A stretch of DNA of 64,000 nucleotides from Pseudomonadota bacterium. GTDB lineage: Bacteria; Desulfobacterota; Binatia; UBA9968. The notes below the pieces were generated by a model, which searched no databases, was not told the origin of the DNA, and was given only the letters and a program-made list of their open reading frames with translations. Positions 3,222 to 55,795 of the stretch are shown here, in pieces. Where the stretch lies: the NCBI GenBank assembly GCA_021324155.1, contig JAJPJQ010000049.1, forward strand, positions 62,001 to 126,000. Direction: 5' to 3'. The number at the start of each line of letters is the position of its first letter. Within the stretch, counting starts at the first letter, position 1. The translations under genes were made by a program, and so were the position numbers.

Positions 3222-3252
3222 CGAAGAAAGATCGGCAACGGCGCCGGATTTA

Positions 3253-3672: not shown

Positions 3673-3767
3673 GGCTGATCCTCCTTATTTGCGATCTTCA
3701 AAGCTGTCGTTCGAGCTTAAGTTTCCTCCGTTCGCCGCGCGGCTGTCAATAGCGGAGAGCGGGGGGC

Positions 3768-4760: not shown

Positions 4761-4828
4761 ATCGGTCGCTTCTCGGAAGAAAAAATCCGCCCTGCGTTTG
4801 CGGTCATAGCATGCGGCGAGAGGCGTCA

Positions 4829-7066: not shown

Positions 7067-7150
7067 GTTTTTTGGGCGGCGATTATCGCGGAGATTCAGA
7101 GGATTACTCCGACGCAACGGATTAGCGATGGAGAGATCGGCTTAACAACT

Positions 7151-8590: not shown

Positions 8591-8647
8591 CGCATCATTC
8601 TCCAACGAACAATCGCCGGCGTTCGCCGCATCGTCCGCTTCGCCGTC

Positions 8648-17103: not shown

Positions 17104-17622
17104 TTACTTTGCTTGTTTTTGTAGTTTGTCTTCGCCGGGCTTGCCGAGCAGCGTGTAGAAATTGCCCAACTCCATGAAATGGGGCTGGTAGAGGAACGCG
17201 AGCAGGCGGCACGGCTTGTTGGGATCGGTATTGAACTGCTGATGCTCGACGCCGCCGGCCTGGATCGGCAAAATGATCAGGTCGCCTTCTTCCCAGTCGT
17301 AGCGCTTCCCGTCCATGACGGTGTAGCCGCTTCCTTCGAGGGCGTAGAGCACCACGCCGCCCTGGTGAATGTGCTTCCCCGAGTGCGTGTGCTGCCGCTC
17401 CTCGAAAACGACCCAGGTTTGCACCGCAGTGTCGGGATACGCGTAAGGGCTCATATAAAACTTGATCTGCCCCATCTTGCCGCGCTCCCACGGACAGTCG
17501 TCGCCTTTAATGACGACGGTGCCGTTGAGCGCGCGCTGCCGCTGCTTCGCCCAGTAATGAATGCTCGCCTCGTCGGCTGTGTCGCCCGGCTCGACCTCGA
17601 TCTGAAAATCAGGCTTTCGCAT
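17104..17622 (-). CDS. Single-domain cupin, equivalent to the C-terminal half of a fused cupin
   Basis: 172 aa with a good metal motif, HSGKHIHQGGVVLYALEGSG near residue 95, followed by YDWEEGDLIILPIQAGGVEHQQF. The region from residue 20 to 160 matches residues 190-340 of the fused cupin at 44759-45799 (SGKHRHQGGLVIYVIEGKG, DWERGDLILLPIQPGGVEHQHF). GGAGG seven bases before the ATG defines the start, which lies inside the 3' end of the HyuB gene (14-base overlap), so translation is coupled. This subunit keeps the histidines that its partner at 16623-17093 lacks. Confidence 0.87.
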   Translation of the reverse strand: MRKPDFQIEVEPGDTADEASIHYWAKQRQRALNGTVVIKGDDCPWERGKMGQIKFYMSPYAYPDTAVQTWVVFEERQHTHSGKHIHQGGVVLYALEGSGYTVMDGKRYDWEEGDLIILPIQAGGVEHQQFNTDPNKPCRLLAFLYQPHFMELGNFYTLLGKPGEDKLQKQAK

Positions 17623-19456
17623 TATTTTCCTCCTCGGTAGTGATTTCCCTCTCTCGTTGATTAAATTCGGCCTTACGTTTTTCCGCTGATCCGTTGTTTT
17701 TAGCGCCGCTTCTCAATCTCGCTGTCTCCGCTCGATCGACGATGCGTGAAGTCGTCTCCACGGCCACGCCGTAGTCGCGGCGTGCGGATTCCGCGCTCAC
17801 GATGCCGTCGATTACGTCCTTTAAAACGGCTTCGGGATCGCGCGCCAGCGGGTCGCCGAAGCCGCCGCCGCCGTTGGCGAGAATTTCCACGACGTCGCCA
17901 TGGTTGAGCACATAGCGGCGATTCACGTCGAGGCGCTCGCTCGCGCCGCCGGTGCGCTCCAGCATCAGAATCGACAACGGCGCGGCGCAGCCACCGGCCG
18001 TGCCGAAGGTCGCGGTTTCCGGCCGCAGCCCGCCGCCGGCCGCCACGAACTGGACGTTGTCGGTGAGCACGCGGAACCGATATCTAACGCCGAGGCCGCC
18101 ACGCCACTTTCCCGGCCCGCCGCTGTCGCGGAGATATTCGTACGCTTCGAGAAAGTAAGGGCACGTCATCTCGTGCCGCTCCGGGTCCGGCGCGCGCGCC
18201 CCGCCCATCGAGCTGATCGGGCCGACGTGATTCCAGCCGTCGATGCCCTCGGTGGCGCCGCCGCCGCCCTTGCAGAAATGATGGATGCTGACGAAGCGCC
18301 GCCGCGTCCGCGGGTTGAAACCCTCGGTGTGCGGTCCGCACCATTTTCCCCAGCATGCCTGGATGCGGTCGGGAATCGCATCGGCGAGCGCGAGCCATGT
18401 CGCTTCGACGATCGCCGCGCATGTCACGACGGTGCAGGCGGTCGTCGGCGCCGGGTCGCGCGCGTTGACGAGCGTTCCTTCCGGGGCCGCAACGCTGATC
18501 GCTTCGTACGAGCCGTGATTCATCCGCACGTCTTTTCCGAGCGCGCCGAGCAGCGCCTGCCACGACGATGAGACGGTATTGGCATATGAGCTGTTGAGGA
18601 ACCCCGGGACTTCGGCGTCCGTACCAAAATAATCGAAGGCGGCGTGCTTATTCTTGACGGTGATTTTCAGACGGATGCGCGGCTGCGGCAGCGACGGATC
18701 GCGAAAGTCGAGCGGGCGCTCGGCGCTGTAGCTGCCGTCGGGAATCAGCGCGATCGCCTTTTCCATCTGCGTCCGCGTCGCTTCGAGCTCAAGCGCGATC
18801 GCGTGCTCCACCTCCCGGTGATCGTAGCGCTCGAGGAGCTGGTGCAGCGCCAGCTCGCCGAGGCGCGTCGCGCCGATCTGACACAGCAGGTCGCCCTGGA
18901 CCAGCTCGCGGTTGCGCACGTTCGAAAGTAGGAGATTCCACACCTCGTCGATCCGTTTGTCGCGGCTGAAAAGCCGCGTCGGCGGCAAACGCAGCCCTTC
19001 GTCGAAAACGGTCCGCGCGTCGGGGTTGTAACCGGCTATGCCGGCGCCGCCGAGATCGGCGTGATGGCCTTTATTGACGACCCAGAAGGTGAGTTTTCCG
19101 CTATTGAACACGGGCTTCAGCACCGTCAAATCGGGAATGTGCGTATTGCCGACGTAAGGATCGTTGAGCAAAAACAGATCGCCTTCGCAGGCATCCCTGT
19201 ACCGCGCAGTGACGGCATCCATCGCGCATGGCAGCGAGCCGAGCAGCACGGGAATATAGGTCGATTGCGCGATCAGCCGGTTTCGCGAGTCGAAGACCGC
19301 GGTGACGAAGTCGCGCGATTCGCTGAAGATCGGCGAGCGCGAAGTCCGAAGCATCGTCTCGCCCATCTCGCGGGTGATATTTGCGAGTTTCGCCGTGATC
19401 ACCGAAGCGACGATCGGGTCGAATTTGATTCGGGCTTTTCGCTTCGACGGCTTCAT
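17609..19456 (-). CDS. hyuB: Hydantoinase B / oxoprolinase beta-like subunit
   Basis: 615 aa from the ATG at 19456. Its first base is the last base of the HyuA stop (TAATG), the tight coupling usual for the pair. HyuB hallmarks are KFDPIVASVITAKLANITREMGETMLRTSRSPIFSE near the N-terminus, DLFLLNDPYVGNTHIPDLT, FWVVNKGHHADLGG and NGGGGFGDPLARDPE near the end. With HyuA it would open a cyclic amide or imide (hydantoin, 5-oxoproline, caprolactam, N-methylpyrrolidone type) in an ATP-dependent reaction, or carboxylate a ketone as in acetophenone and acetone carboxylases. The residue set visible here cannot tell these apart. Confidence 0.93.
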   Translation of the reverse strand: MKPSKRKARIKFDPIVASVITAKLANITREMGETMLRTSRSPIFSESRDFVTAVFDSRNRLIAQSTYIPVLLGSLPCAMDAVTARYRDACEGDLFLLNDPYVGNTHIPDLTVLKPVFNSGKLTFWVVNKGHHADLGGAGIAGYNPDARTVFDEGLRLPPTRLFSRDKRIDEVWNLLLSNVRNRELVQGDLLCQIGATRLGELALHQLLERYDHREVEHAIALELEATRTQMEKAIALIPDGSYSAERPLDFRDPSLPQPRIRLKITVKNKHAAFDYFGTDAEVPGFLNSSYANTVSSSWQALLGALGKDVRMNHGSYEAISVAAPEGTLVNARDPAPTTACTVVTCAAIVEATWLALADAIPDRIQACWGKWCGPHTEGFNPRTRRRFVSIHHFCKGGGGATEGIDGWNHVGPISSMGGARAPDPERHEMTCPYFLEAYEYLRDSGGPGKWRGGLGVRYRFRVLTDNVQFVAAGGGLRPETATFGTAGGCAAPLSILMLERTGGASERLDVNRRYVLNHGDVVEILANGGGGFGDPLARDPEAVLKDVIDGIVSAESARRDYGVAVETTSRIVDRAETARLRSGAKNNGSAEKRKAEFNQREREITTEEENNAKA

Positions 19457-21513
19457 TATAGACCCAGCGCCAATCTGAAATTGCCGCCGCCGTCGAGCTG
19501 CGCGCGGCAGTACGGCTGGACGACGACGGCTGTATCGGGGTACTCGACGACGCACGGTCCCTGGAGACGGGCGCCCGCGCCGAGCGTCGCGCCGTCGTAT
19601 ACCGGAGCGGCGGCAAACTTTCCGGCAAAGAATACTTTTCGCGTTTCTTTGAAAGATTTTTTTACGCCGCCGTCCTTACCTATCCGGATCCGCGCCGGCT
19701 TCTTCGTGCCCGCGGTGGAATGCAGACGGACGTTGACCAGCTCTACTTCTCCGGCGGGATCGGCGTAGCCGTAGAGGCTTTCGTGCCGGGCGTGAAAGGC
19801 GGCGGTGATTTTTTTCGCGTCTAGATCGGCAAGCGGGATTTCGACCTCGTGAAATTGTCCCGTGTAGCGCACGTCGAGCGTGGGTCTGAGAGAAAGGGCG
19901 CCCGCGTCGCTCCGATTTCTCGCCTCTTTGGTCATTTCATCCAGCGCGCGCCGGATCTCCGCTTCGACGCCGTTGCGAAGCGGGCGGATCAGCGAGCGAA
20001 TATAATGATGATGAAAATCCGCCATGAGCATGCCGTAGGCGCACATAACGGCGCCGACGCGCGGTATCAATACATCGCGAATGCCCAGCTCCGCGGCGAT
20101 CTCCGCGGCGTGGATCGGCCCGGCTCCTCCGCCCATGACGAGCAAATGATCTCTCGGGTCGATGCCCTCCTGAATCGTGACGACGCGGATCGCGCCGGCC
20201 ATGTTGGCGTTGACGATACGGTAAATTCCCGCGGCGGTTTCCTCGACGCTGAGACCGAGCGGCGCTCCGACGGCACTCACCGCACTCGCGGCAAGATCGG
20301 GATTCAATCGGAACCGCCCTCCCAGGAAAGCTCCCGGGTTCAAATAGCCAAGAACGAGCTGGGCGTCGGTGACAGTCGCCTTATTCCCGCCTTTGCCGTA
20401 ACATGCCGGGCCGGGAAGCGCGCCGGCACTCGCGGGCCCGACGCGCAGGATTTTTCCCTCCTCCGCCCACGCGATGCTGCCGCCGCCCGCGCCGATCGAA
20501 TGAATCCGCAGCCCCGGCGTCGCCACGCGGTAGCCGCCGACTTCGCGCTCGTTGGTGAGCGATACGACGCCGCGCTGGATGAGACTCACCTCGAAGCTGG
20601 TCCCGCCCATGTCGCCGACGAGGACTCCGGGATGTTTGCCCGCGAAAACTCCGGCGGCCGTCGGCCCGGCGGCCGGACCCGACAACAGTGTGTTCACCGG
20701 CGTGCGGCGGATCGACGCCAGCGAGCCGACGCCGCCGTTCGACTGCATGATGTAAAGCTCCCCCGCGAAACCCTCGCGCGCGAGCGCGGTCGAGAGTTTT
20801 TCGAGATAGCCGTCGATCACCGGACCTACCTTCGCGTTAATGATTGTCGTACAGTGGCGCTCGTAGGCGCCGATCTGCGGCAGCACTTCGTGCGAGGTGG
20901 AAAGATATGCTTTCTTCGCCGCATCGCGCACGACTTCGGCGACGATCTGCTCGTGCGCCGGATTGAGGAACGAGAACAAGAGACTGACGGCGAGCGATTC
21001 GACGCCCTCCGCGAGCAATCTTTCGACCGCGGCTTTGACCGATTCGCGGTCGAGCTCGCGGACAACCGCCCCTTCGCAATCGACGCGCTCGTCCACCTCG
21101 GCGATCAAATGGCGCGGCACCAGCGGCGCCGGCGGGCGCAGCTTGCCGTCGAACGGCGACGGCCTCAGCCCGCGCCGCATGTTGGCGATGTCGCGAAACC
21201 CCGCCGTGGTGAGAAATCCCGTCTTCGCCGTCCTGCCGGTGATCAAAGCGTTGGTCGCGATGGTTGTCCCGTGGACGATTCTCGCGATGCGCCGGATGAA
21301 ATCATGCTCGGCGAAGCCCAGGCTCGCGCCCATCGCGCGCAGGCCTTCGAGAACTCCCTGCGAAGGATCGTCGGGCGTGCTGAAATGCTTGAACGTCGAG
21401 GACCGGCCGCCTCTTTCCACCAGGAAAAAGTCGCTGAACGTGCCGCCGACGTCGACGCCGAGGTAAAGCGGCTCGCGCCAGTTCGCAGCTCCGATTGCCG
21501 GTCTATTCGCCAT
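19456..21513 (-). CDS. hyuA: Hydantoinase A / oxoprolinase alpha-like subunit
   Basis: 685 aa from the ATG at 21513; longer readings lack family similarity. An actin-like ATPase fold is indicated by LGVDVGGTFSDFFLVE at the N-terminus, ATNALITGRTAKTGFLTT near 85, LSGPAAGPTAAGVFAG near 280, DMGGTSFEVSLI near 300 and GGAGPIHAAEIAAELG near 460. HyuA supplies ATP-dependent activation for the HyuB half. The acyl-CoA dehydrogenase gene ends 14 bases upstream. Confidence 0.93.
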   Translation of the reverse strand: MANRPAIGAANWREPLYLGVDVGGTFSDFFLVERGGRSSTFKHFSTPDDPSQGVLEGLRAMGASLGFAEHDFIRRIARIVHGTTIATNALITGRTAKTGFLTTAGFRDIANMRRGLRPSPFDGKLRPPAPLVPRHLIAEVDERVDCEGAVVRELDRESVKAAVERLLAEGVESLAVSLLFSFLNPAHEQIVAEVVRDAAKKAYLSTSHEVLPQIGAYERHCTTIINAKVGPVIDGYLEKLSTALAREGFAGELYIMQSNGGVGSLASIRRTPVNTLLSGPAAGPTAAGVFAGKHPGVLVGDMGGTSFEVSLIQRGVVSLTNEREVGGYRVATPGLRIHSIGAGGGSIAWAEEGKILRVGPASAGALPGPACYGKGGNKATVTDAQLVLGYLNPGAFLGGRFRLNPDLAASAVSAVGAPLGLSVEETAAGIYRIVNANMAGAIRVVTIQEGIDPRDHLLVMGGGAGPIHAAEIAAELGIRDVLIPRVGAVMCAYGMLMADFHHHYIRSLIRPLRNGVEAEIRRALDEMTKEARNRSDAGALSLRPTLDVRYTGQFHEVEIPLADLDAKKITAAFHARHESLYGYADPAGEVELVNVRLHSTAGTKKPARIRIGKDGGVKKSFKETRKVFFAGKFAAAPVYDGATLGAGARLQGPCVVEYPDTAVVVQPYCRAQLDGGGNFRLALGL

Positions 21514-21527
21514 GAAGTCTCTTGCGT

Positions 21528-22667
21528 TTACGAGAGGATTTCCCGCGCGATGATCTCGCGGTGGATCTCGGAAGTGCCGCCGCCGATCGTGGCGGCGCGC
21601 GAATCGCGGAAATGGATCTCCATCTCGCAGTCTTGTGTGTAGCCGAAGCCGCCCATCATGTGGACGCCGTCGCTCGCGATTTTCACGTAGGTCTCGGACG
21701 CCATCAGCTTCGCCATCGAGGCCTGCATTCGGCACGGCAGTCCCCGATCGACCATCCAGGCGGCGCGGTAGACCATCAATCGGGCGCTATCGACGGCGGT
21801 CTGCATGTCGGCGAGCCGGTGGCGCAGCACCTGAAAGGCCGACAGCGGCTTGCCGAACTGCTCCCTCTCGTTCAGATATTTAACCAGCATACCGATGACG
21901 GACTGTGAGTTGCCGACGTACTGCGCGCCGACGCAGGAGCGGTCGCCTTCCAGGGTCTTGCCGAGGTTTTGCCAGCCGCGATTGATGCCGCCGACGACGG
22001 AGTCTTGGCCGACGTGCGCGTCGAGGATCACCTCATTCAGCGGGATCGACCGCCGGCCGAGCGTCTTCAAGCGGCGCGTCTCGACTCCCGGCGTGCCTTT
22101 TTCCACGGCAAAGACCGTCAGCCCCTGCTCCTTCTTTTTCTCCGTCGAGGTGCGGGCGACGACGAGCAGAAGATCGGAAAGCTCGGCCGCACTGATGAAC
22201 ATCTTGCTGCCGTAGAGATGAAATCCGCCGTTATCCTTGACCGCCCGCGTCCGCAGGGACGCCGCGTCGGAGCCGGAATCCGACTCCGTCAGCGCGAGCC
22301 CGACGAACATCGCCCCCGAGGCGATGGCGGGCAAATATTTTCGCTTCTGCTCCTCGCTGCCGTAAAGCAGCAGCGAGCGGCTGCCGAAAACGCAGCTGCT
22401 GAAGTAGAGGCTCGCGAGCGCCGGCATCGCCTGCGCAAGCTGCTCGATCACGAGCACGACCGCGACGAAGTTCCCTCCGGCGCCGCCGTATTCTTTCGGC
22501 ACCGGCAGACCGAGCCAACCCGCCGCGCCGAGTTTGCGGTAGAGATCGAGCGGGCATTCTCCCGCCTCGTCGTAGCGCCGGACGACTCCGGCCGGGCACT
22601 CCTGCTTGACGAACTCGCGGATGCCGGCGATCATCATCTGCTGCTCTTCGTCGAGTTCAAAATCCAT
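21528..22667 (-). CDS. Acyl-CoA dehydrogenase family protein with displaced catalytic residue
   Basis: 379 aa FAD-dependent acyl-CoA dehydrogenase: FELDEEQQMMIAGIREFV, LALTESDSGSDAASLRTRA near 128, GSKMFISAAELSDLLLV near 155, FGKPLSAFQVLRHRLADM near 280 and GGFGYTQDCEMEIHFRDSR near 345. The usual C-terminal catalytic Glu motif (IYEGT) reads TIGGGTSEIHRE, so that Glu is Gly, as in isovaleryl-CoA and long-chain enzymes. Those keep a Glu in helix G, but the matching segment here is TLEGDRSCVG, placing Asp at that spot. It likely oxidises a branched or cyclic acyl-CoA. The LLM oxidoreductase gene ends three bases upstream. Confidence 0.9.
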   Translation of the reverse strand: MDFELDEEQQMMIAGIREFVKQECPAGVVRRYDEAGECPLDLYRKLGAAGWLGLPVPKEYGGAGGNFVAVVLVIEQLAQAMPALASLYFSSCVFGSRSLLLYGSEEQKRKYLPAIASGAMFVGLALTESDSGSDAASLRTRAVKDNGGFHLYGSKMFISAAELSDLLLVVARTSTEKKKEQGLTVFAVEKGTPGVETRRLKTLGRRSIPLNEVILDAHVGQDSVVGGINRGWQNLGKTLEGDRSCVGAQYVGNSQSVIGMLVKYLNEREQFGKPLSAFQVLRHRLADMQTAVDSARLMVYRAAWMVDRGLPCRMQASMAKLMASETYVKIASDGVHMMGGFGYTQDCEMEIHFRDSRAATIGGGTSEIHREIIAREILS

Positions 22668-31239: not shown

Positions 31240-32862
31240 TCAGCTTTTTTTCGATTCGTCTTTCGGCGCGGGAACGCGCTCGCGCTCCATCTTTTTTCCG
31301 GTTTCGTAGTGCTTACCTTCGATCGCGAGCTTTCCCGCCGCGTTTTCGTCTTCGGTCCACCAGCCGAGATCATAGCCGTACCAAGGGCGGCGCAATTCGA
31401 GGCGCGGCAGGCCTAATTCTTCCCAGATCGGAATGACACGCTCCATAATACGTTTCGGCGGCAGCGAGACCGGCGGGTACGGCCACTTGCGCGTCGCGTC
31501 CATGAGCATGACGGAGACGCTCGAATCGCCTCCACTCGCCTGAAACCCGCCCGGGTCGCCGGTTCCGGGCGGAAAGGCCGACCAGTCGGCCGAGATGAGC
31601 GGCATCATCTTCACTTTCATGTCGCGGTGCGGCTGCAAGCGGTAGGTGATCGCCCACACGATCGCGTCGACATTTCGCGGATCGATATCGTCGTCGACCA
31701 CCACGATCATTTTGGCGCGAATGCTCGGCGAAGCGGTGCACGCTTCTAGAATGCCGCTCACTTCGCCGTCCTTCGGCTCAGCTATCTGAATGCAGCATAG
31801 TCCCCAGCCGCCGCTCGCTTCGTGATAGCCCACGTCCTTCACGCAAGCGAAGCCGCGGCCGCGCAAGTACGAGATCGCGTTGCCTTCGCTGCCGACGGTG
31901 CGGATCATGCTCGATTCGGACGGCGGAAACTGGCTAAGCATCGTTATCCAGAGCGGATTCTTACGATGCGTCACGCAGGTGATCTCGAAAAACGGATTAA
32001 GCTGCTGCGGGTCCATGTAGCCGGTGAACTCGCCGAACGGGGCCTCCGGCTCCAGGACGTCGGTGCGGATATAACCTTCCAAGGCTATTTCCGCACTTGC
32101 GGGTACCTCGATATCGACGGTTTTCGCCTTGACGACCGCCACCGGCTCACCGGCGAGCCCGCCCGCGACTGCATATTCGTCGACGCCATAAGGAATTTTT
32201 ATCACCGAGGCATATGCCACATTGGGCGGCGCGCCGACGACGGCCACGGCGGGCATCGGCTTGCCGAGCTTCTGCCATTTGCGCCAGTGCTGCGTAATGT
32301 GCTGGCCGCCGCCCGCGTTCATGCCGAGCCGCGTGCGCGATTTCATCATGCCGCGGTAAGTGCCGATATTGCGCACGCCGGTCTCCGGGTCTTTCGTGAT
32401 CCACTGGCTGCAGCTCGTGAACGGCGCCGCGTCGAAGCCGGGCGTCGAGATCGGGATCGGAAACTCCTCCAAACCCATCCCCGGGCGGTCCAGCTCGTCC
32501 TGGAGATGCACCTCTTCATGCACCGGCCCGCTGGCGACGAGCGCCGGGTCGATCGGATTCTCGCGCGCCTTGGTCCAGCGCTCGGCGATCTTAGCCGGAT
32601 CGCACTGCAATCCCGCGCCGTAAATCCGCCGCGAGCCCGCGAGGCAGGCCACTACGACGGGAATGGAAAAGCGACGCCCGGCGAGATCGGTCACGTGCTC
32701 GAACAAAAACGCCTTGCGTTCGGCTTCGGGCAGCCCGCGAAACTGCAAACGCACGAGCGGATTCAGCTCGGTATCCTTGTTGATCGGGCGATTCACCCGC
32801 ACGAGCAGGCCCGCCTGCTCCAGCGCCACAAGATGCTCGCGCATGTCTTTGAAATACGCCAA
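31240..32862 (-). CDS. UbiD family decarboxylase
   Basis: 540 aa, somewhat longer than the copy at 7151-8590. The N-terminus has FKDMREHLVALEQAGLLVRVNRP. The prenyl-FMN and active-site segments include GTYRGMMKSRTRLGMNAGGGQH near 170 and PEAPFGEFTGYMDP near 275, in which E-A-P-F-G-E holds the two glutamates. VVDDDIDPRNVDAIVWA is near 405. Start is TTG at 32862 with AGGGAG upstream; the next ATG (six codons later) lacks a site. It is 57 bases upstream of the NahE-like aldolase gene. Confidence 0.92.
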   Translation of the reverse strand: MAYFKDMREHLVALEQAGLLVRVNRPINKDTELNPLVRLQFRGLPEAERKAFLFEHVTDLAGRRFSIPVVVACLAGSRRIYGAGLQCDPAKIAERWTKARENPIDPALVASGPVHEEVHLQDELDRPGMGLEEFPIPISTPGFDAAPFTSCSQWITKDPETGVRNIGTYRGMMKSRTRLGMNAGGGQHITQHWRKWQKLGKPMPAVAVVGAPPNVAYASVIKIPYGVDEYAVAGGLAGEPVAVVKAKTVDIEVPASAEIALEGYIRTDVLEPEAPFGEFTGYMDPQQLNPFFEITCVTHRKNPLWITMLSQFPPSESSMIRTVGSEGNAISYLRGRGFACVKDVGYHEASGGWGLCCIQIAEPKDGEVSGILEACTASPSIRAKMIVVVDDDIDPRNVDAIVWAITYRLQPHRDMKVKMMPLISADWSAFPPGTGDPGGFQASGGDSSVSVMLMDATRKWPYPPVSLPPKRIMERVIPIWEELGLPRLELRRPWYGYDLGWWTEDENAAGKLAIEGKHYETGKKMERERVPAPKDESKKS

Positions 32863-42050: not shown

Positions 42051-43724
42051 CTATCTGTATGCCTGCGGATACTCTTCCGCGGCTTTTTCCGGCGAGACGT
42101 AGCCCAAAGCGACATCGCGTTTGACCGCCGAGGCGTCCCGCTCCGACGGCGCGCCGTAGCCGCCGCCTCCGGCGGTGAGAAATGTCACGGTCTCGCCGGG
42201 ACGAGCGAGCATGTGGCTGAATTTCCCGGCGAGCTTTTCCGACTTCCCATTGCGTTGAATGAACGTCGCGTTGGTTTGCCCCTCGGCGCCGCCGAAGAGC
42301 CCCCAGGGCGGGCATTTGATGCGGTCGGTGTTGCGGCTGACGAGCATATCGTGCAGCGGCCGCACGCGGACTTCGACGCCGATGCCGCCGCGAAATTTTC
42401 CCGCGCCGCCGCTGTCCGGCCGGAACGCGTGGCATTCGTAAAGCAGCGGGTAATAGAGCTCCTGCAGCTCGACCGGCGTGTTCTTAACGTCGCCCTGGCA
42501 CATCGACACCGCCGACGACGCGCCGTCCTCGAAGGGACGGCCGCCCCAGCCGCCGCCGATGATGTTCTGGCAGACGTAGCGCCGTCCGGTTTTCGGATGC
42601 GTGCCGAAGATCGCGTAACCGCCCATGTCGCCCTTGTGCGCCGCGGGGATGCGCTCCGGCAGAACGGGCGCGAGCGCGCGGATGATCGTATCCAGCACGG
42701 TCGGGAGCGAAAGACTCCAGCCGCCGATCGGCGCGGGCCGTTTGGCGCTGAGCAATTTTCCCGGCGGCAGCACGACCTTGAGCGCGCGAAACGATCCTTC
42801 GTTCACTTCCGAGCGCGGCGACGTGAGCGCCTTGAACGCGACGCGCGCGGCGGCCATGCCGCCCGACGAGCCGCAGTTGATGAATCCCGCCACCTGATCC
42901 GCGACCTCGGAGAAATCGACCGTGAGCTCGTCGCCGCGGACCTCCACGGCGACTTTGATCGGAATCGTCTTGGTGAAATCCCGCCCGTCGTCGTCGAGAA
43001 AAGACGCCGCGCGATAAACGCCGTCGGGAATCGCGCGCACCGACTGGCGCACGAGCCTGTCGGTCTGGTCCCAGATCGTCCGCACGGCTTCCTCAAAAAC
43101 CGCGGCGCCGTATTTCCGGCAGATCTCCGCCAGGCGCTCCTCGCCGGTGCGACAGCACGCGATCTGCGCGCGCAGATCGCCCATCGACGACTCGGGGAAG
43201 CGGATGTTGTCCTCGATGAGCCGGAGCACTTCCGCGTTCGGCTTGCCGCCGTCGTAAATTTTGACCGAGCGGATCTGGAGCCCCTCTTCGTAGACGTCGC
43301 GCGTCATGCTCGAGCCGAAGCCGGTGCTGCCGCCGCCGACATCGATCCAGTGCGCGCGCACGGCGAGAAAACAGGTCAGCCGGCCGTCCCAGAAAAACGG
43401 CGTGTAGACCGCCATGTTGTTCAGATGCTGGCCGCAGATCTCGGGATGGTTGACGAGAAAGACGTCGTCGGGACGGATATTCTCCTTGCCGTAGACTTCG
43501 ATGCCGTCCTCGACGGCGACGCCCAAGTCGGCGAGAAAGATCGGCAGCGCGCCCTCGTTCTGCGCCATCGTGCGCCCTTCGTCGTCGAGGATGCTGACGC
43601 AGTAGTCCTGCACCTCGTAGATCATCATGTTGTACGCGGTCTTTTTTAAGACCGCCGACATTTCGTTCGCCGCGGCTTTGAGCGCGCAGCGGATGATCTC
43701 GACGGTGATCGGATCGATGGGCAC
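42051..43724 (-). CDS. hyuB: Hydantoinase B / oxoprolinase beta-like subunit
   Basis: 557 aa starting at GTG (43722-43724). PIDPITVEIIRCALKAAANEMSAVLKKTAYNMMIYE, FLVNHPEICGQHLNNMAVYTPFF and AGGGGYGAPSERDASAVKRDV are typical HyuB regions. It is much closer to the copy at 53326-54978 than to that at 17609-19456. It is the last gene of a four-gene operon that has no HyuA; the HyuA at 48990-51035 in the neighbouring operon is the nearest partner. Confidence 0.92.
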   Translation of the reverse strand: MPIDPITVEIIRCALKAAANEMSAVLKKTAYNMMIYEVQDYCVSILDDEGRTMAQNEGALPIFLADLGVAVEDGIEVYGKENIRPDDVFLVNHPEICGQHLNNMAVYTPFFWDGRLTCFLAVRAHWIDVGGGSTGFGSSMTRDVYEEGLQIRSVKIYDGGKPNAEVLRLIEDNIRFPESSMGDLRAQIACCRTGEERLAEICRKYGAAVFEEAVRTIWDQTDRLVRQSVRAIPDGVYRAASFLDDDGRDFTKTIPIKVAVEVRGDELTVDFSEVADQVAGFINCGSSGGMAAARVAFKALTSPRSEVNEGSFRALKVVLPPGKLLSAKRPAPIGGWSLSLPTVLDTIIRALAPVLPERIPAAHKGDMGGYAIFGTHPKTGRRYVCQNIIGGGWGGRPFEDGASSAVSMCQGDVKNTPVELQELYYPLLYECHAFRPDSGGAGKFRGGIGVEVRVRPLHDMLVSRNTDRIKCPPWGLFGGAEGQTNATFIQRNGKSEKLAGKFSHMLARPGETVTFLTAGGGGYGAPSERDASAVKRDVALGYVSPEKAAEEYPQAYR

Positions 43725-47630: not shown

Positions 47631-48989
47631 TCAGCCGCCGAGCGCGGCAAAGAGATCGCGTAACGATTCCCGCCGGTCCAAAGACGTAACGACGTCAATC
47701 GCAGATTGCGCGCGCTCGCCGAGAATCGGCGCCGCCAGCGAAAGGAATTTGTCCTCGATTTCGCGCTCCGACATCGGATTCGCGCTCTCGCCTTTCGGCA
47801 CGACGGTCTCATGCGTATAGGACGAGCCGTTTTTCAATCCGACGCGCACGCGCCCCGGCCACGATTGCGGGAAATAGCGGTCGAGCTCGCTCTCGCCTTG
47901 CACGGCGACGCGACGTAGCAAATCCCGCACATGGACGTCGCTGAGCATCGCGTCCTCGAAGCAGGACAGATCCATTTTTCCGCCGATCGCCGTCGCCGCC
48001 ATGACGTACTGGCCGCTGCCGAGCGCAGCGGCGCGGTTCTGCGGCGGCGCCGGCCGATTCACCATGCCGGCGTTCGCCGTCGGCACCCTCAGCGTGATTT
48101 CTTTTATCGACGAAGCATTCACCGAATGCTCACGAAGCAACGTGAGCAGCGCTTCCACGCCGGCGTGCAGCTGGCGCGCGCACGGATACGGTTTGAACGC
48201 GACCTCGGGTAAAAAATAGCCGTCGAGATTTTTCAAATACTCCCACTTCGGCAACGCGGAGAGCGTCAGGCAAAATCCGCGCGGGTCTTCGAACGCCTTC
48301 CTGGGGCCGGTGAATCCGGCCTCGGCGGCGTTGAGCGCGAGCAGGCCGTTTCGCGCCGCGCTACCAAAGATCAGGTGGCGCGCGGTCGCGCCCTCGGCGC
48401 CGCCGGTGATCATGCCGCCGGTATATAGGGACGCGATGCCGAGCGCGTTCGCCGTCCTATCGGGCGGCCACTGCAAAAACTTGGCAGCCGCGACGGCGAC
48501 GCCGAAACCGCCGCAGACCGTGCTCGGCCACCAGCCTCGCGCGAATAATGCCGGCGCATCGACGGCGAGCCCCACGCGCGCGGTCGTCTCATACCCTGCG
48601 ATCACGGCTTCCAAAAAGCCCGTACCGCTGCCGCCGTTTTTTTGCGCGAGCGCGAGCAACGCCGGAACGGTTAGCGCGCCGATGCAGGTCCCCGCGCCGC
48701 CGTGGATGTCGTCCATCTCGCCGCAGTGCGCCGCGACGGCCATCGCCTGCGCCGCATCGAGATAGGATGCGCGCGCGCCGCTGCCGACGAGCGTCGCGTC
48801 GTTGCCGCGGGCCGCGGCGGCGAGATCGTAAGCGCGCTTTCCGGGATCGAGGCGCGAGCCGGCGAGCAGGCAGCCGAGCGTATCGAGAATGTGGAGCTTC
48901 GCGGCGCGAACGACCGCTTCGGGAATATTATTAATGCGCAGCGAAGCGTAGTGACCGGCCAGCCGCTCGCTTAAGCTTTCTTCCACCAT
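47631..48989 (-). CDS. MmgE/PrpD family protein
   Basis: 452 aa, typical for the 2-methylcitrate dehydratase / cis-aconitate decarboxylase / iminodisuccinate epimerase family. AAKLHILDTLGCLLAGS near residue 28, AAHCGEMDDIHGGAGTC near 85, AVIAGYETTARVGLAVD near 130 and EVAFKPYPCARQLHAGVEAL near 260 are family blocks. In this operon the substrate is unlikely to be methylcitrate; a related hydroxy- or amino-dicarboxylate is plausible. It follows the HyuA stop with no gap, as the last gene of the six-gene operon. Confidence 0.92.
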   Translation of the reverse strand: MVEESLSERLAGHYASLRINNIPEAVVRAAKLHILDTLGCLLAGSRLDPGKRAYDLAAAARGNDATLVGSGARASYLDAAQAMAVAAHCGEMDDIHGGAGTCIGALTVPALLALAQKNGGSGTGFLEAVIAGYETTARVGLAVDAPALFARGWWPSTVCGGFGVAVAAAKFLQWPPDRTANALGIASLYTGGMITGGAEGATARHLIFGSAARNGLLALNAAEAGFTGPRKAFEDPRGFCLTLSALPKWEYLKNLDGYFLPEVAFKPYPCARQLHAGVEALLTLLREHSVNASSIKEITLRVPTANAGMVNRPAPPQNRAAALGSGQYVMAATAIGGKMDLSCFEDAMLSDVHVRDLLRRVAVQGESELDRYFPQSWPGRVRVGLKNGSSYTHETVVPKGESANPMSEREIEDKFLSLAAPILGERAQSAIDVVTSLDRRESLRDLFAALGG

Positions 48990-51035
48990 TTAGGAACCGA
49001 CATCGATCGCTAGATGGCCGTGCGGCTCGACCTGCATTTTGTCGCCGGGATAGAGGAGGATCGTCGCGCCCATTTCTTCGATGACCGCGGGGCCGACCAG
49101 GCGATCGCCGGGCTTGAGGCCGCTGCGGAGATAAATGGGGCAAACGACGCCGCGATGCGCGTCGTCGAAAGTCACCTTGCGCTTGCCGCGCTCGCCCTTG
49201 TCGTCGTCGCGAAACGCGGCGGAAAGCGCCAGCCGATCGCCGGAGCGCCCGAGCGCCGTCAGGCGCAGGTTGACCATCATCACCGGCTCGTTCGGCGCCG
49301 AATGGCCGTAATGCTGCTGATGGAGTTGGTCGAAGCGCGCGCGAATCGCGCCGAAGTCCTTGAGTGTGCGCAGATCTTCGGTGACCGGCACCGGCACGGT
49401 ATACTCCTGGCCGCGGTAGCGCATATCGAGAAAACGCCTGAGCGCTATCTGACGCGGCGCCGCGCCTTCCTCGCCGAGCGTTTCGCTAGCGGATTTTTCC
49501 AGCGCGGCGAACGCGGCGGCGATCTCCGCGCCATTGGTCTCGCTAAGCTCGCGAATGAATGTCTGCACGTAATCGTGCTTCAAATCGGCGAGCAGCATGC
49601 CGAGCGCCGAGAAGTGCGCGGGCATCGGCGGAATGACGATGCGCGGCACCGACAGCTCGCGCGCGATCGCGCCGGCGTGCAGCGGCCCGCCTCCGCCGCT
49701 CGGCACGAGCACGCAGTCGCGCGGATCGTAGCCCTTCTCGACCGATACGGCGCGCACGGCCAGCGACATGTTGAAGTTGGCGATCGTGAGAATGCCGAGC
49801 GCGGCTTCCTCGAGCCCGAGACCGAGCGGCTTGCCGATCTTATCGACGATCGCCTGCGCCGCTTTCTCCGGCTGCAACCGAATGCCGCTGCCGAGAAAAT
49901 ATTCCGGATCGATGCGGCCGAGGATCAGATTCGCGTCAGTCACTGTCGGCTCGCTGCCGCCGCGTCCGTAGCAGGCGGGACCCGGCGCGGCGCCGGCGCT
50001 CTGCGGCCCGACTTTGACGCCGCCCGCCGCGTCGATCCACGCGATGCTGCCGCCGCCGTTACCGACTTCCACGATGTCGACGACCGGGAGCATCATCGGA
50101 TGGCCGGACACATAGCCGCCGACGTAGTAGCTGCTCGTCACCTCCGGGTGAAAATCTTTGATGAGGCTCGCCTTCGCCGTCGTCCCGCCCATGTCGAAGG
50201 AAATGATCTGACGGCAATCGAGCGATTCGCCGATCTGGGCCGCCGCGATGACGCCCGCGACCGGGCCGGACTCCATCATCGTCACCGGCATCTTCTTCGC
50301 CGTCTCGGCCGACATCACGCCGCCGTTCGACTGCATCACGCGGAACGTGCCGCGAAAGCCCGCGGCGGCGAGCATCTTTTCGAGCGCCGCGAGATAGCGG
50401 CTCACGAGCGGCCCGACGTAGGCGTTCAGCACCGTCGTTGAGGTGCGCTCGTACTCGCGGAACTCGCGCAGGATCTCGTGCGACAATGAAACGTAGGCTT
50501 CCGGAAATTGCTCGTGCAGCAGCTCGCCGAGCCGCCGCTCGTGCGCGGGATTGGCATACGAGTGCAGCAGGCACACCGCGACGCTCTCGACGCCGGCCGC
50601 TTTCAGCGCGGCGATCGTCGCCGCCGCCGATTTTTCCTCGAGCGGCGTCAGCACTTCGCCGGTCGCGTAAAGCCTTTCAACCACTTCCAGGCGCAAGTCG
50701 CGCGAGACCAGCGGCACCGGCCGCTTGAAAAATAAATTGTAGCCCTCGGGCCGGTTGCCGCGGCCGATCTCGTACACGTCGCGGAAGCCCTTGGTCGTGA
50801 TGAGCCCGGTGCGCGCGCCTTTGCGCTCGAGCACCGCGTTGATCGTGACCGTCGAGCCGTGGACGAAAAACTCCGCGCCGGCGACGTCGATGCCGGCGAT
50901 GCCGAGGCAATCCTGAATCGCGCGTGACAAATCGTCCGGCGTCGTGAGCGACTTGCTGCGATAGACCTGCCGCCCGTCGTCGATCGCGACGAGGTCGGTA
51001 AACGTTCCACCGATATCTACGGCGATTCTTAGCAT
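48990..51035 (-). CDS. hyuA: Hydantoinase A / oxoprolinase alpha-like subunit
   Basis: 681 aa. ATPase-fold motifs: RIAVDIGGTFTDLVAIDDG at the N-terminus, FVHGSTVTINAVLERKGART near 58, ESGPVAGVIAAAQIGE near 255, SFDMGGTTAKASLI near 278 and PSGGGGPLHAGAIARELS near 445. It is the only HyuA in the 42-56 kb block, which contains two HyuB genes (42051-43724 and 53326-54978). The M24-fold gene ends six bases upstream. Confidence 0.93.
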   Translation of the reverse strand: MLRIAVDIGGTFTDLVAIDDGRQVYRSKSLTTPDDLSRAIQDCLGIAGIDVAGAEFFVHGSTVTINAVLERKGARTGLITTKGFRDVYEIGRGNRPEGYNLFFKRPVPLVSRDLRLEVVERLYATGEVLTPLEEKSAAATIAALKAAGVESVAVCLLHSYANPAHERRLGELLHEQFPEAYVSLSHEILREFREYERTSTTVLNAYVGPLVSRYLAALEKMLAAAGFRGTFRVMQSNGGVMSAETAKKMPVTMMESGPVAGVIAAAQIGESLDCRQIISFDMGGTTAKASLIKDFHPEVTSSYYVGGYVSGHPMMLPVVDIVEVGNGGGSIAWIDAAGGVKVGPQSAGAAPGPACYGRGGSEPTVTDANLILGRIDPEYFLGSGIRLQPEKAAQAIVDKIGKPLGLGLEEAALGILTIANFNMSLAVRAVSVEKGYDPRDCVLVPSGGGGPLHAGAIARELSVPRIVIPPMPAHFSALGMLLADLKHDYVQTFIRELSETNGAEIAAAFAALEKSASETLGEEGAAPRQIALRRFLDMRYRGQEYTVPVPVTEDLRTLKDFGAIRARFDQLHQQHYGHSAPNEPVMMVNLRLTALGRSGDRLALSAAFRDDDKGERGKRKVTFDDAHRGVVCPIYLRSGLKPGDRLVGPAVIEEMGATILLYPGDKMQVEPHGHLAIDVGS

Positions 51036-51041
51036 GCGTTG

Positions 51042-52202
51042 TTATTTGCCGAGCAGCGAGGTCGGCCCGCTGGCCGTCACCAGAAAACTATCGCCGAATA
51101 AGATCAGCTTGCCTTCGCTCTCGAACGCGACGCGCAGCGCGACCGCCATATTTTCCGCGAGTTCCTTTGCGCCAACGGAGCGCGCGCCGGCCTCGCGCGC
51201 GTCGCTCTCATTCAGAAACGGCGCTTCCCATTGATTGAGACCGAGTCCGTTGCCGAGACCGTAAACCGTCGCAGCGGCGTAGAATTCGCCGAGCTGCCTC
51301 TGCGCGATTTTATCGATAGCCGCGACCGCATTTCCCGGCCTGAGCTGCGCCGCCATGCCGGCGACAATATCCTGCGCTTTGCGATACGCGGCTTGCAGCT
51401 TCGCGTCGGAAGATAATATGTAGGTGCGGCCCGCTTCCGCCCAATAGCGCTCGTGCTGCACGGCCAGATGCAGCGCCCAATGATCGCCAACCGCGGCGGT
51501 TTGCTTGAAGCTCGGCGGCTGCAAGCGCTTCTCGCCGGCGAGAATGCGAATGTCCTCGGCGCCGGCGTCGCGCGCGAGCCGGTCGATGTCGGCGACGATC
51601 TCGTATTCCTTCCGTCCGGGCTTGATAAATTTTTTTGCGCCTTCAGCTACGGCATGAAGCACGCGGCCGGCCTCGCGCAGCGCGTTTACTTCCAGCGCGG
51701 TTTTCTTGAGCCGCATCGGCTCGAGCAGCGCGTCCGCCTCGATCCATTGAACCTCGGGCAGACCGCGCTTCATCTCTTCGAGCTGCGGCAGCGGAAAACC
51801 GCGGCCGGAGTCGACGAGTCCGATGCGCGCTTTCGCGAGTCCTTTTTCTTTGATTAATTCCGCGCCGGCGCCGCCGACCTGGTTCGACGCGCGGATGTCG
51901 TCGACCCAAGTGAGCGTCTTGGCGAACGGGATGTCGCGGCTGCCGATGTTAAGCAGGAGCGCGAGCGCGCCGTCGCGCGGCACGACGACGATGCCGCCGC
52001 GGACTTTGGGAAAATAATTCGTCAGATAGCAAAGATCGGCGAAGGAATAGTTGTCGCCGTAGATGACCAGCGCGTCGAGCTGCCGCTCGGCCATCGCTTT
52101 CCGCGTCGCCGCGAGCCGCGACTCGAATTCCCCCCGCGGCACCGCGTTCGGATCCCACGTGGAGCAGCCTCGTTTGAGCACGGAGTGGCGTCCGAAGATC
52201 AT
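51042..52202 (-). CDS. M24 (creatinase/Xaa-Pro peptidase) fold protein lacking metal ligands
   Basis: 386 aa with the N-terminal creatinase domain (RKAMAERQLDALVIYGDNYSF) and a pita-bread M24 domain. The five metal ligands of metallopeptidases (Asp, Asp, His, Glu, Glu) are all replaced or unrecognisable: ALHLAVQHERYWAEAGRTY where DxG...D..RT is expected, YGLGNGLGLNQWEAP where GHGIG..HE.P is expected, and LILFGDSFLVT where the last Glu would be. Creatinase has the same fold without metals, so a metal-free C-N hydrolase is the best guess. Its neighbour at 52207-53316 is a distant paralogue with similar losses. Confidence 0.88.
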   Translation of the reverse strand: MIFGRHSVLKRGCSTWDPNAVPRGEFESRLAATRKAMAERQLDALVIYGDNYSFADLCYLTNYFPKVRGGIVVVPRDGALALLLNIGSRDIPFAKTLTWVDDIRASNQVGGAGAELIKEKGLAKARIGLVDSGRGFPLPQLEEMKRGLPEVQWIEADALLEPMRLKKTALEVNALREAGRVLHAVAEGAKKFIKPGRKEYEIVADIDRLARDAGAEDIRILAGEKRLQPPSFKQTAAVGDHWALHLAVQHERYWAEAGRTYILSSDAKLQAAYRKAQDIVAGMAAQLRPGNAVAAIDKIAQRQLGEFYAAATVYGLGNGLGLNQWEAPFLNESDAREAGARSVGAKELAENMAVALRVAFESEGKLILFGDSFLVTASGPTSLLGK

Positions 52203-52206
52203 CGCT

Positions 52207-53316
52207 TCACTCCTTTATATAGAGGTCCCAGGACGAGCGCGTCATGGGTTCGGCTTTGGACGCGGTCATGACGACGGTGTCGCCGAGCGTCATGTAGCCG
52301 GTCTCCGGCAGATACTGGTTCGGGTGCACGATGAAGGTCATGCCTTCTTCCAGCCGCGTATCGTTCCCGTCCTCCAGATTTCCCGGCGCCGACGAGCCGC
52401 AGCCGAGCCCATGGCCGCGCACGCGCATGAAAGGCGGACGGCAATATTTTTCGTAGCCCGCATCGGTGAGCACGGCGTTGATCGCCGCCGCGACGCCGCT
52501 CGCCGGCGCGCCGGTGTTCGCGGCGTTCATGCCGAGCTGCATCGCGTTCTTCAGCAGCGCGTATTTTTCCTGCACCACCGGCTGCGGCTGGCCGAGTACC
52601 ACGGTGCGGCAGATTTGCACGAACAGCCCGCCGACGCACGGCGTGATCTCGCCGATGATAATGTCGCCCTTCTGCACAATGCGGTCGGTCGGCGGATGGA
52701 GCGCGTTGTTGTGATGGTGCGCGACGACCATGCCGAAATTGTCTTCGGCGCCGAGCGCGCGCATGCGGTATTCGACGATCGCCGCTAGCTCGTATTCTTT
52801 CAAACCCGGCCGCGCCTCCTCGTGCAGCGACTGGACGCCGGCGTCCGCGATCGCGGCGGCTTTGCGCAGCCTTTCGAGCTCGAATTCAGTCTTCCGGCGC
52901 GCCATGTTTTCGACGATATCCTTCGCGTTGACCGGTTTTTGCGGAAGCGCTTTGACGATGTCGTCGTTTAACGCGGCGTGCATCCATTCGCGGCCGACCA
53001 CACCGACCTGGCCGGAAAGCTTTGGGAGCACATTCCAAAATTCTTTGAACGGCTTCACGTCCTGCACCCACGACTCGTCTTTCGCGCGCGGAATGTCCCA
53101 GGCGGGCGTGACGAAAAGAACCGCATCGCCTTCCAATGGGAAGACCAGCATCGCCTCCGGCCCGACGCCGATGAAATCCGTCAGGTAGGCGACATAATTC
53201 ATGCGCAAAAAGTTGTGCCGCCCGGCGTCGAAGACGAGCAGCGTGTCGATGCCCTGCTCGCGCATCGCCTGCCGGATCTTCGCGGCACGGCTCTTATATT
53301 CCTGTTCGCCGTTCAT
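52207..53316 (-). CDS. M24 (creatinase/Xaa-Pro peptidase) fold protein, metal site degenerate
   Basis: 369 aa. N-terminal KIRQAMREQGIDTLLVFDAGRHNFLRM and a pita-bread C-terminal domain. The glycine-rich RGHGLGCGS keeps the His of the family. The other ligands are changed: IIIGEITPCVGGLFVQICRT has Glu and Gln where two Asp are expected, GMTFIVHPNQYLP has His for Glu, and GYMTLGDTVVMT has Gly for Glu. A catalytic His with no metal is how creatinase works, so a creatinase-like amidine or amide hydrolase is plausible. It sits four bases upstream of the other M24-fold gene and nine bases after HyuB. Confidence 0.88.
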   Translation of the reverse strand: MNGEQEYKSRAAKIRQAMREQGIDTLLVFDAGRHNFLRMNYVAYLTDFIGVGPEAMLVFPLEGDAVLFVTPAWDIPRAKDESWVQDVKPFKEFWNVLPKLSGQVGVVGREWMHAALNDDIVKALPQKPVNAKDIVENMARRKTEFELERLRKAAAIADAGVQSLHEEARPGLKEYELAAIVEYRMRALGAEDNFGMVVAHHHNNALHPPTDRIVQKGDIIIGEITPCVGGLFVQICRTVVLGQPQPVVQEKYALLKNAMQLGMNAANTGAPASGVAAAINAVLTDAGYEKYCRPPFMRVRGHGLGCGSSAPGNLEDGNDTRLEEGMTFIVHPNQYLPETGYMTLGDTVVMTASKAEPMTRSSWDLYIKE

Positions 53317-53325
53317 CGCTCCTCC

Positions 53326-54978
53326 CTAATCGGCCGGCATGTAGCCGAACGCGCGGTCGCGCTCGATCAGCTCGCGCGGCCGCTGCGTCGCGCAGCCGTA
53401 GCCGCCGCCTCCGGCGGTGAAGAAAGTCACGCTGCCGCCTTTTTTCAGCGCCAGGTTGGGACGCTTGGTCATCCATGCGCCGGCGTCTTCCGGCGATTGC
53501 TTGACCAACGCCTTCGCGGCGGCGCCGCCGTCGCCGCCGAAAAGCCCCCACGGCGGCGTGCGCGTCCGCTCGATGTTGATATTCACGAGACAGTCGCACA
53601 GGGTCTTCACGGTGATTTCGATACCGAGGCCGCCGCGGAATTTTCCCGCCCCGCCGCTGCCTTCGCGCAGCCGGTGCCGCTCGACGAGCACGGGATAATA
53701 GAGCTCCTGCAGCTCGATGGGCGCATTCTGCACGTCGCCCTGGCACATCGAGACCGTGGCGTTTTGGCCGTCCTCGCCGGCGCGCCCGCCCCAGCCGCCG
53801 CCCATGATCGTCTGGCACAAGTAGCGCCTGCCGGTACGCGGGTTGCTGCCGAAGAATGCGTAGCCGCCCATGTCGCCCTTGTGGCCTGCGGCGATTTTAT
53901 CCGGCAGCGCCGGCGCGAGCGCCTTGAAAATGAGATCGATCACCGTCGGCAGCGTGCGGCTCCAGTTGCCCACCGGCGCGGGCGGCGTCGCGCTCAAGAT
54001 TTTTCCCGGCGGTATGATGACTTTTAGGGCGCGAAAGCAGCCTTCGTCGATCGGCGAGAATGGACTCACGAGGCACTTGAAGGCGACGCGTGCCGCCGCG
54101 ACCGCACCCGACTCGCCGGAATTGATCGAGCCGGGCACCTGATTGCTGATCTCCGAGAAATCGATGGTCATCTCGCCGCCGTCGACGATCACTTTCACCT
54201 TCAGCGGCACGGGCCGGTTGAGATCGACGCCGTCGCTGTCGAAAAGCGCTTCGGCTTCGTACGTGCCGGGCTTGATGCGCGCGACCTGCTGCCGCGCGAG
54301 CGCCTCGGACTGATCGCCGATCGCGCGCACCGAGCGCAGGAAAACCTCGAGGCCGTAGCGGCCGACGAGTTCGGCCAGGCCGCGCTCGCCGATGCGGCAG
54401 GCGGCGATCTGCGCGCGCAGGTCGCCGAGACAGCTCTCGGCGAAACGCACGTTGTCGGAGATCAATTGAAAGAGATCGCGATTGGGCTCCTCGCCGCGAT
54501 AGAGCTTGAGCGAGCGGAACTGCAGCCCCTCCTCGTAAATTTCCCGCGTGCCGCTGTAGCCGAAGCCGACGCGCGTGCCGCCGATGTCGATCCAATGCGC
54601 GCGCACGGCGAGAAACGCGACCAGCTCGCCGTGGTGAAAAAACGGCGTGTAGATGACGACATTGTTCAAATGCTGCCCGCAGACGTAGGGATGATTCATG
54701 ATGACGACGTCGCCGGGCCGAAAACCGTCGCGGCCGTGCGTGCGCACGCCGTCGACGATCGCCGGACCCAGGTCGGCGAGGAAGATCGGCAGCGCGCCGA
54801 AGTTCTGCGACAGAATATTGCCGTCGGGATCGACGATGCCCACGCAATAGTCGCGGACCTCGTAGATCATCATGTTGTAGGAGGTCTTGCGCAGCACGGT
54901 CGCCATCTCGTTGGCGATGTGCGCGAGGCCGCTGCGCACGACCTCGACGGTGATCGGATTGAATTCCGATGCGGGCAT
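53326..54978 (-). CDS. hyuB: Hydantoinase B / oxoprolinase beta-like subunit
   Basis: 550 aa. FNPITVEVVRSGLAHIANEMATVLRKTSYNMMIYEVRDYC, VIMNHPYVCGQHLNNVVIYTPFF, GHKGDMGGYAFFGSNPRTGRRY and TAGGGGYGCATQRPRELIERD are close to the copy at 42051-43724. Its ATG follows the nitroreductase stop directly. It most likely pairs with the HyuA at 48990-51035 in the same operon. Confidence 0.93.
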   Translation of the reverse strand: MPASEFNPITVEVVRSGLAHIANEMATVLRKTSYNMMIYEVRDYCVGIVDPDGNILSQNFGALPIFLADLGPAIVDGVRTHGRDGFRPGDVVIMNHPYVCGQHLNNVVIYTPFFHHGELVAFLAVRAHWIDIGGTRVGFGYSGTREIYEEGLQFRSLKLYRGEEPNRDLFQLISDNVRFAESCLGDLRAQIAACRIGERGLAELVGRYGLEVFLRSVRAIGDQSEALARQQVARIKPGTYEAEALFDSDGVDLNRPVPLKVKVIVDGGEMTIDFSEISNQVPGSINSGESGAVAAARVAFKCLVSPFSPIDEGCFRALKVIIPPGKILSATPPAPVGNWSRTLPTVIDLIFKALAPALPDKIAAGHKGDMGGYAFFGSNPRTGRRYLCQTIMGGGWGGRAGEDGQNATVSMCQGDVQNAPIELQELYYPVLVERHRLREGSGGAGKFRGGLGIEITVKTLCDCLVNINIERTRTPPWGLFGGDGGAAAKALVKQSPEDAGAWMTKRPNLALKKGGSVTFFTAGGGGYGCATQRPRELIERDRAFGYMPAD

Positions 54979-55761
54979 TTATTTCTTTTCGTCCGCGGTC
55001 ACCGCGCGCGACGCGGAATGGATCGGCACGGTCGCTTCGCGGAGCGAATAGAGATATTTGATCACGTCTTCATTCGACATGTACTTGCTCATGTCGTAGC
55101 GGTCGCGGTGCACGATGTTTTCGAGCGGACGGCGCACGCCTTCGTGCGCGGGCACGTCGGGATAGCCGATGGGAATAATGAGATAGAGCTTCAACAGGTC
55201 GGGAACGCCGAGCACGCGCTTGTGCGGCTCCTCGACGTGGATCGACACCCATTCGGAAGTAAGGCCGAGCGACGCGACGGCGAGATGGATCAAGAACGAC
55301 GCGTTGGCGAGGCCGTCGGTCAAATGCGACTGGTCGCGGCCGAAGGTGTGCGCGCCCATGACGGTGCCCCACTGCCGCCGGCCGTCTCCGAGCACGACGA
55401 TGACGGCCGGCGCCTGATGCCAGTTCGCCTTCGCCTTGTTGAAGCGCAAAGATTCGTGCGGGTCGTTCTTCACCTGATAGGACGGATGGCGCAGGTTGTA
55501 CTCGCGCTGCTGCTCCATCCAGAAGATGAAGTCCGTGTTGTATTCGGAATAGGCGTCGCGCAGCTCTTTCTTGATCTTGGGATCGGTGACGATGACGAAC
55601 TCCCACGGCTGGGAATTCGCGCCCGACATCGCCCAGCGGGCGACCTCGAGAATCTTGTTGATGGTGTCTTCCGGAATCGGATCGGGCCGGAATTTGCGCA
55701 CGCTCATGCGCGTCTTCACGAGCTTGAGCAGCATGTCGTACGTTTGATTTTTGTCGCCCAT
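54979..55761 (-). CDS. Nitroreductase family protein, paralogue of 45801-46583
   Basis: 260 aa from the ATG at 55761, which has GGAGG five bases upstream; the ATG six codons earlier lies before that site and is unlikely. The shared blocks RWAMSGANSQPWEFVIV, QWGTVMGAHTFGRDQSHLTDGLAN, KRVLGVPDLLKLYLIIPIGYP and EGVRRPLENIV show descent from a common gene with 45801-46583. It is the first gene of a six-gene operon with HyuB, two M24-fold proteins, HyuA and MmgE/PrpD. The presumed flavin enzyme may prepare a ring for the hydantoinase-like step. Confidence 0.92.
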   Translation of the reverse strand: MGDKNQTYDMLLKLVKTRMSVRKFRPDPIPEDTINKILEVARWAMSGANSQPWEFVIVTDPKIKKELRDAYSEYNTDFIFWMEQQREYNLRHPSYQVKNDPHESLRFNKAKANWHQAPAVIVVLGDGRRQWGTVMGAHTFGRDQSHLTDGLANASFLIHLAVASLGLTSEWVSIHVEEPHKRVLGVPDLLKLYLIIPIGYPDVPAHEGVRRPLENIVHRDRYDMSKYMSNEDVIKYLYSLREATVPIHSASRAVTADEKK

Positions 55762-55795
55762 AAACTCCTCCACGCTCATTGCCCCGGAGTCGTTA

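Follow-up and report, generated by a model that had tools for sequence, protein, structure and literature searches.

A conserved pair of creatinase-fold proteins lacking the M24 dinuclear metal ligands, encoded between hydantoinase-like genes in Candidatus Binatia

The locus described here raises the question of what two adjacent proteins of the M24 (creatinase/prolidase) fold do when the metal ligands of their family are gone and their genes lie between those for the two subunits of a hydantoinase-like enzyme. The window, meaning the whole 64,000-nucleotide stretch that was analyzed, comes from the draft genome (4.8 Mb, 98% complete) of a soil bacterium of the Candidatus Binatia. Six genes follow one another on its minus strand with gaps of a few bases, in the order nitroreductase-like, HyuB, M24B, M24A, HyuA and MmgE/PrpD (Table 1); M24B and M24A are 4 bp apart. 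As the original prediction stated, two M24 proteins are encoded between HyuB and HyuA. Both are full-length open reading frames, and both match PF01321 (Creatinase_N) and PF00557 (Peptidase_M24) above cut-off with near-full coverage of the profiles.

Table 1. Genes of the operon in the window, in operon order.
Product	Coordinates	Strand	Length (aa)	Profile matches	Remark
Nitroreductase-family (BluB-like) protein	54979..55779	minus		PF00881	First gene of run
HyuB, hydantoinase B / caprolactamase beta-like subunit	53326..54978	minus		PF02538, 522 bits	
M24B, creatinase-fold subunit	52207..53316	minus	369	PF00557, 121 bits; PF01321, 36 bits	
M24A, creatinase-fold subunit	51042..52202	minus	386	PF00557, 64 bits; PF01321, 46 bits	
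HyuA, ATP-dependent hydantoinase A / caprolactamase alpha-like subunit	48990..51035	minus		PF01968, PF05378, PF19278	
MmgE/PrpD family protein	47631..48989	minus		PF03972/PF19305	Conserved next operon gene

The product of the first gene scores 78 bits against the NCBIfam BluB model, below its cut-off, and a copy 90% identical to it adjoins HyuB at locus L055. Orthologues of the operon genes were found in MAGs that bear the label Candidatus Binatia or Deltaproteobacteria, and a MmgE/PrpD gene comes after HyuA in those orthologous operons with sufficient contig. No sigma-54 promoter site was found in the gap between the operon and a regulator gene at 56711, and sigma-54 matches across the window were no more frequent than expected by chance. 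Elsewhere the window (948-8605, 17609-21735 and 31240-32862) holds many degradation genes, including two molybdenum-hydroxylase large subunits, two UbiD decarboxylases, amidohydrolases and a second HyuA/HyuB set, and it is also rich in solute-binding proteins.

The dinuclear metal centre of M24 enzymes is formed by the ligand set D-D-H-E-E. Ligand columns were read from an alignment with prolidases of known structure and with the intact M24 proteins encoded in the same genome. These columns hold E223, Q234, H302, H331 and G345 in M24B and H245, E256, N318, R357 and G370 in M24A; the set found in M24 metallopeptidases is missing from both. The letters originally assigned by inspection (H-E-N and a Gly for M24A, E-Q-H-H-G for M24B) proved correct in this alignment, which also supplied the missing letter for the fourth column of M24A (Arg, R357), and the predicted loss of the dinuclear ligands was thereby confirmed for both proteins. 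Ligand loss suggests that neither protein carries metal, although E223, H302 and H331 of M24B could hold one ion.

Residue conservation in M24B was examined over a wide set of 16 sequences. They span several subfamilies and come from Binatia, from MAGs of Rhizobiales, from plasmids of Neorhizobium galegae and from a different family within the phylum. All five replacement residues (E, Q, H, H and G) are invariant in 16 of 16. They belong to 27 invariant positions, which also include C236, R237, R298, R300, N333 and Y341. Nearly all of the 27 lie in the half of the protein that holds the pocket, 24 of them within residues 218-345. For M24A, E256, N318 and R357 are invariant in a closer set of 18 sequences, and only four positions (G12, R29, P65 and W254) are invariant across 17 sequences. 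The difference between 27 and four invariant positions indicates that M24B keeps one common pocket and that M24A keeps none. Identity among Binatia orthologues is 70-75% for M24B and 70-73% for M24A. Values of dN/dS against five orthologues were ∼0.13-0.21 for M24B and ∼0.15-0.23 for M24A, and should be considered rough because dS is near saturation; both genes are under purifying selection. Since E-Q-H-H-G is invariant in the M24B relatives examined and selection acts on both genes, loss of the ligands does not amount to decay. Two points weigh against the enzyme proposed below. His202 of M24B, which comes closest to being the creatinase base, is conserved in closer relatives only, and the loop bearing H302 is poorly predicted, with pLDDT under 50 at residues 299-316.

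Genes of the M24B and M24A types occur in the identical 17 of 25 genomes of the family, and neither occurs in the other eight. The chance of two identical sets is ∼9e-7 assuming independent genomes, which genomes of one family are not fully. Wherever both genes could be read (24 loci), M24A comes immediately after M24B, and mostly the two are close together or overlap. In a tree of 49 M24 proteins, all M24A sequences form one clade (support 100/99) and all M24B sequences another (99/98), and the branching order inside one clade is mirrored in the other. The mirror-tree correlation between the two proteins was r = 0.955 for 16 pairs and r = 0.824 for nine representatives (one row per subfamily), a value reached in 2 of 5000 permutations. 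M24A diverges ∼1.2-1.3 times as fast as M24B. The two proteins are an obligate, co-evolving pair, and this pairing is a novel element that goes beyond the original prediction. It makes one enzyme of two different subunits likelier than two enzymes; counting against a heterodimer, co-divergence can also arise when two genes are inherited or transferred together as a cassette, even if their products never touch. Across the whole order Rhizobiales few genomes have the paired type, the threshold being passed by 1 of 297 (the starting genome itself). Relatives of the pair were absent from the viral contigs searched.

Gene neighbourhoods of the pair are of four types. Eight Binatia genomes, that of the window among them, have the order hyuB-M24B-M24A-hyuA, which may be followed by mmgE. 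In ten Binatia genomes M24B and M24A lie with genes for ABC transporters, UbiD decarboxylases, molybdenum hydroxylases or flavin oxidoreductases; these pairs are close relatives of the window pair and are not beside hyuAB. Rhizobiales MAGs and Neorhizobium galegae plasmids have the order HyuA-HyuB-M24B-M24A, also with genes for NMT1-type or other ABC transporters and, in Neorhizobium galegae, with a distant MmgE-like gene after the pair. The fourth type, from another family of the phylum, combines M24B and M24A with ornithine-cyclodeaminase-like, aconitase-like, isochorismatase-like and UbiD genes. The link to HyuA and HyuB that was read from this one operon recurs across phyla. What these neighbourhoods share is a theme of taking up and degrading small compounds that often contain nitrogen, and no single substrate fits them all. 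Because copies are carried on Neorhizobium galegae plasmids (L084 and L085), the pair can be tested in a culturable species. On plasmid pNgVX of strain VafX2 (L085, 8267-12613), the annotation splits HyuB and the pair into several fragments; the same genes are open frames in strain HAMBI 1141 (L084), and the fragments reflect sequencing errors or recent decay. Another M24-MmgE neighbourhood was seen on a plasmid of Rhodococcus sp. BH4 (L096, 4908-9913), where a DoeA-like M24 protein is encoded beside two C45 peptidases and a MmgE/PrpD protein.

HyuA of the window operon has the ATP motifs DIGGTFTD, DMGGT and GAAPGP, and its best PDB match is the N-methylhydantoinase 7hk5. When HyuB was aligned to CapB (6yra_B), D41, H99 and H124 were found to be kept and D102 to be replaced by Asn, giving a metal site of D-H-N-H. 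The same replacement (motif GQHLNN) is present in the HyuB encoded at window positions 42051-43724 and in several other modules, including those of Rhizobiales. In caprolactamase, D102A abolishes activity (PMC8453981).

It had been proposed that the pair might belong to a pathway for a creatinine- or hydantoin-like compound. A creatinine pathway is not supported: no creatininase was detected in the 98%-complete genome, and the ten Binatia pairs found with UbiD, ABC transporter and molybdenum-hydroxylase genes are away from hyuAB. Our search of the open-licence literature returned no paired metal-free M24 system and no M24-hydantoinase link besides creatine/creatinine catabolism.

AlphaFold2 single-chain models of M24B (pLDDT 84) and M24A (pLDDT 81) were compared by VIA-align with Foldseek's top 1000 chains, rows with Z within 1 being treated as tied. 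Both models carry the creatinase fold and match M24 structures at Z above 30. For M24B the best match is EutD/DoeA (Z 34.8, 2.8 Å over 351 residues), followed by creatinase (1chm, 33.7) and by prolidases at 32.6 and lower. For M24A (Z 35 for the M24 fold), Pyrococcus furiosus prolidase and EutD are tied, and creatinase scores 32.6. Foldseek orders the matches differently, with prolidases first for both proteins, and by sequence both score best against prolidases rather than EutD or creatinase. With a VIA margin of ∼2 Z over prolidases, EutD/DoeA and creatinase are the nearest structural neighbours of M24B by a small margin only; to this extent the suspected kinship with C-N hydrolases that are not peptidases was borne out.

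Taking these results together, we propose with moderate confidence that M24B and M24A constitute one enzyme with two different creatinase-fold subunits. The pair would act without a dinuclear metal centre and hydrolyse a C-N bond in a small nitrogen-containing molecule, as part of a catabolic route that would also use HyuAB (for ATP-dependent ring opening) and the MmgE/PrpD protein. Given 27 invariant positions in one protein and four in the other, M24B is probably the catalytic subunit and M24A its diverged, faster-evolving partner, most simply in a heterodimer. In the M24B pocket, the two-metal centre of the peptidase ancestors would have been replaced by the fixed residue set E223-Q234-(C236,R237)-R300-H302-H331-N333-Y341-G345. 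Here E223, at the position of the EutD/DoeA Glu, may act as nucleophile or base, and the positive charge that formerly came from metal may now be provided by H331, a position held by Lys in paralogues. Creatinase-type dimers are built so that one subunit places its N-terminal domain over the active site of the other, and M24A could shape or complete the M24B pocket as such a second subunit. Loops of M24A that complete this pocket would explain how M24A has lost its own and yet stayed required. DddP dimerizes in the same embracing mode (PMC4108388).

Three other explanations were weighed. M24B might still be a metalloenzyme in which E223, H302 and H331, with Q234, form a mononuclear site like that of two-His-one-carboxylate enzymes, the pair then being a metal-dependent hydrolase or lyase. 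All three potential ligands are invariant in the M24B relatives examined, and H302 and H331 stand in columns whose residues share one metal ion in the ancestral dinuclear centre, as known from MetAP and prolidase. DddP is a precedent for an M24 relative turned non-peptidase metalloenzyme (PMC4108388). However, paralogues in the genome with an otherwise similar E-Q-x-x-G set have Lys at the position of H331, which argues for positive charge there and not for metal, and the fourth and fifth ligands would be Q and G; we regard a mononuclear enzyme as rather unlikely.

M24 proteins are normally homodimers, and M24B and M24A could accordingly be two independent, co-transcribed homodimeric enzymes that attack C-N bonds in succession, ahead of or following HyuAB. 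Each protein does have a complete fold and is under purifying selection, but their perfect co-occurrence, their mirrored trees and the lack in M24A of a pocket conserved across subfamilies, where M24B keeps one, make this arrangement quite improbable. It is more doubtful still that both are pseudoenzymes, serving as ligand-binding or scaffold subunits of a HyuAB complex or as regulators in the manner of Spt16 or of EBP1, a known non-catalytic M24 protein (PMC11266112). Such a role would fit the loss of all peptidase ligands but one and the way in which window-type and Rhizobiales operons keep the pair beside HyuAB. It does not fit the pairs that occur without HyuAB, beside UbiD and molybdenum-hydroxylase genes, nor the fact that the most conserved residues of M24B are polar pocket residues, and we give it very little weight.

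The pair does not stand alone in its genome. Among 17 M24 proteins, D-D-H-E-E is kept only in L001 (methionine-aminopeptidase-like), L003 and L006, and about ten further paralogues (loci L007-L013 and L015-L017) lack the peptidase ligands. In most of these the ligand columns resemble those of M24B and are best written E-Q-x-[HK]-G, since the third column is alignment-dependent (Arg, or the neighbouring His of HGRG). Their genes are spread over contigs C7, C19, C20, C32, C38 and C44, with C32 holding three within a short distance and C38 two. With ligand loss common to so many paralogues, the pair probably represents a single branch within a larger group of proteins that left dinuclear metal catalysis. 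More tentatively, and with considerable doubt, the pair may represent a new enzyme type, an obligate metal-free heterodimer with a catalytic E-Q-H-H-G subunit and a degenerate one that works with HyuAB to open and degrade N-heterocycles and belongs to a large metal-free M24 clade expanded in Binatia.

To our knowledge, creatinase and EutD/DoeA are the well-studied M24-fold enzymes that work without a dinuclear metal centre. If our proposal is true, the pair, conserved and equipped with a replacement set of its own, would add another metal-free solution, and a heterodimer in which one subunit keeps the active site as its twin decays would be unusual for the creatinase fold. Automatic annotation of distant relatives as Xaa-Pro peptidases is probably wrong for the clade of the pair.

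Four known systems invite comparison. Caprolactamase (CapAB) and the ATP-dependent N-methylhydantoinase share a superfamily with the flanking HyuA and HyuB, and three of the four CapB metal ligands are kept; the window proteins, however, score far below the NCBIfam caprolactamase cut-offs, and the described systems have no M24 subunits, unlike the window operon. Prolidase and aminopeptidase P have the same fold and the top sequence scores (1pv9, E 2e-31 for M24B) and differ from the pair in having D-D-H-E-E. Creatinase (creatine amidinohydrolase; 1chm, 1kp0 and 7yto) has lost the dinuclear metal centre and hydrolyses a C-N bond; it shares its fold and ∼20% identity with M24B and is encoded by a single gene. 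The ectoine hydrolase EutD/DoeA (6twj, 6twk and 6yo9) opens a nitrogen ring, belongs to a catabolic operon and, like M24B, has the M24 fold without the peptidase ligand set and with Glu where the first Asp ligand would stand (E255 by counting on 6twk; E223 in M24B), a Glu that M24A lacks. Identity to M24B is only ∼20-22%, NCBIfam equivalog scores are far below cut-off (53-68 bits against 575 and 38-62 against 613), and the PH[LA]TW-type motif of DoeA-like proteins, with its His, is missing from M24B relatives. The other ligand columns read P-Y-M-T in EutD/DoeA and Q-H-H-G in M24B, and EutD/DoeA is encoded alone, whereas M24B is always accompanied by M24A.
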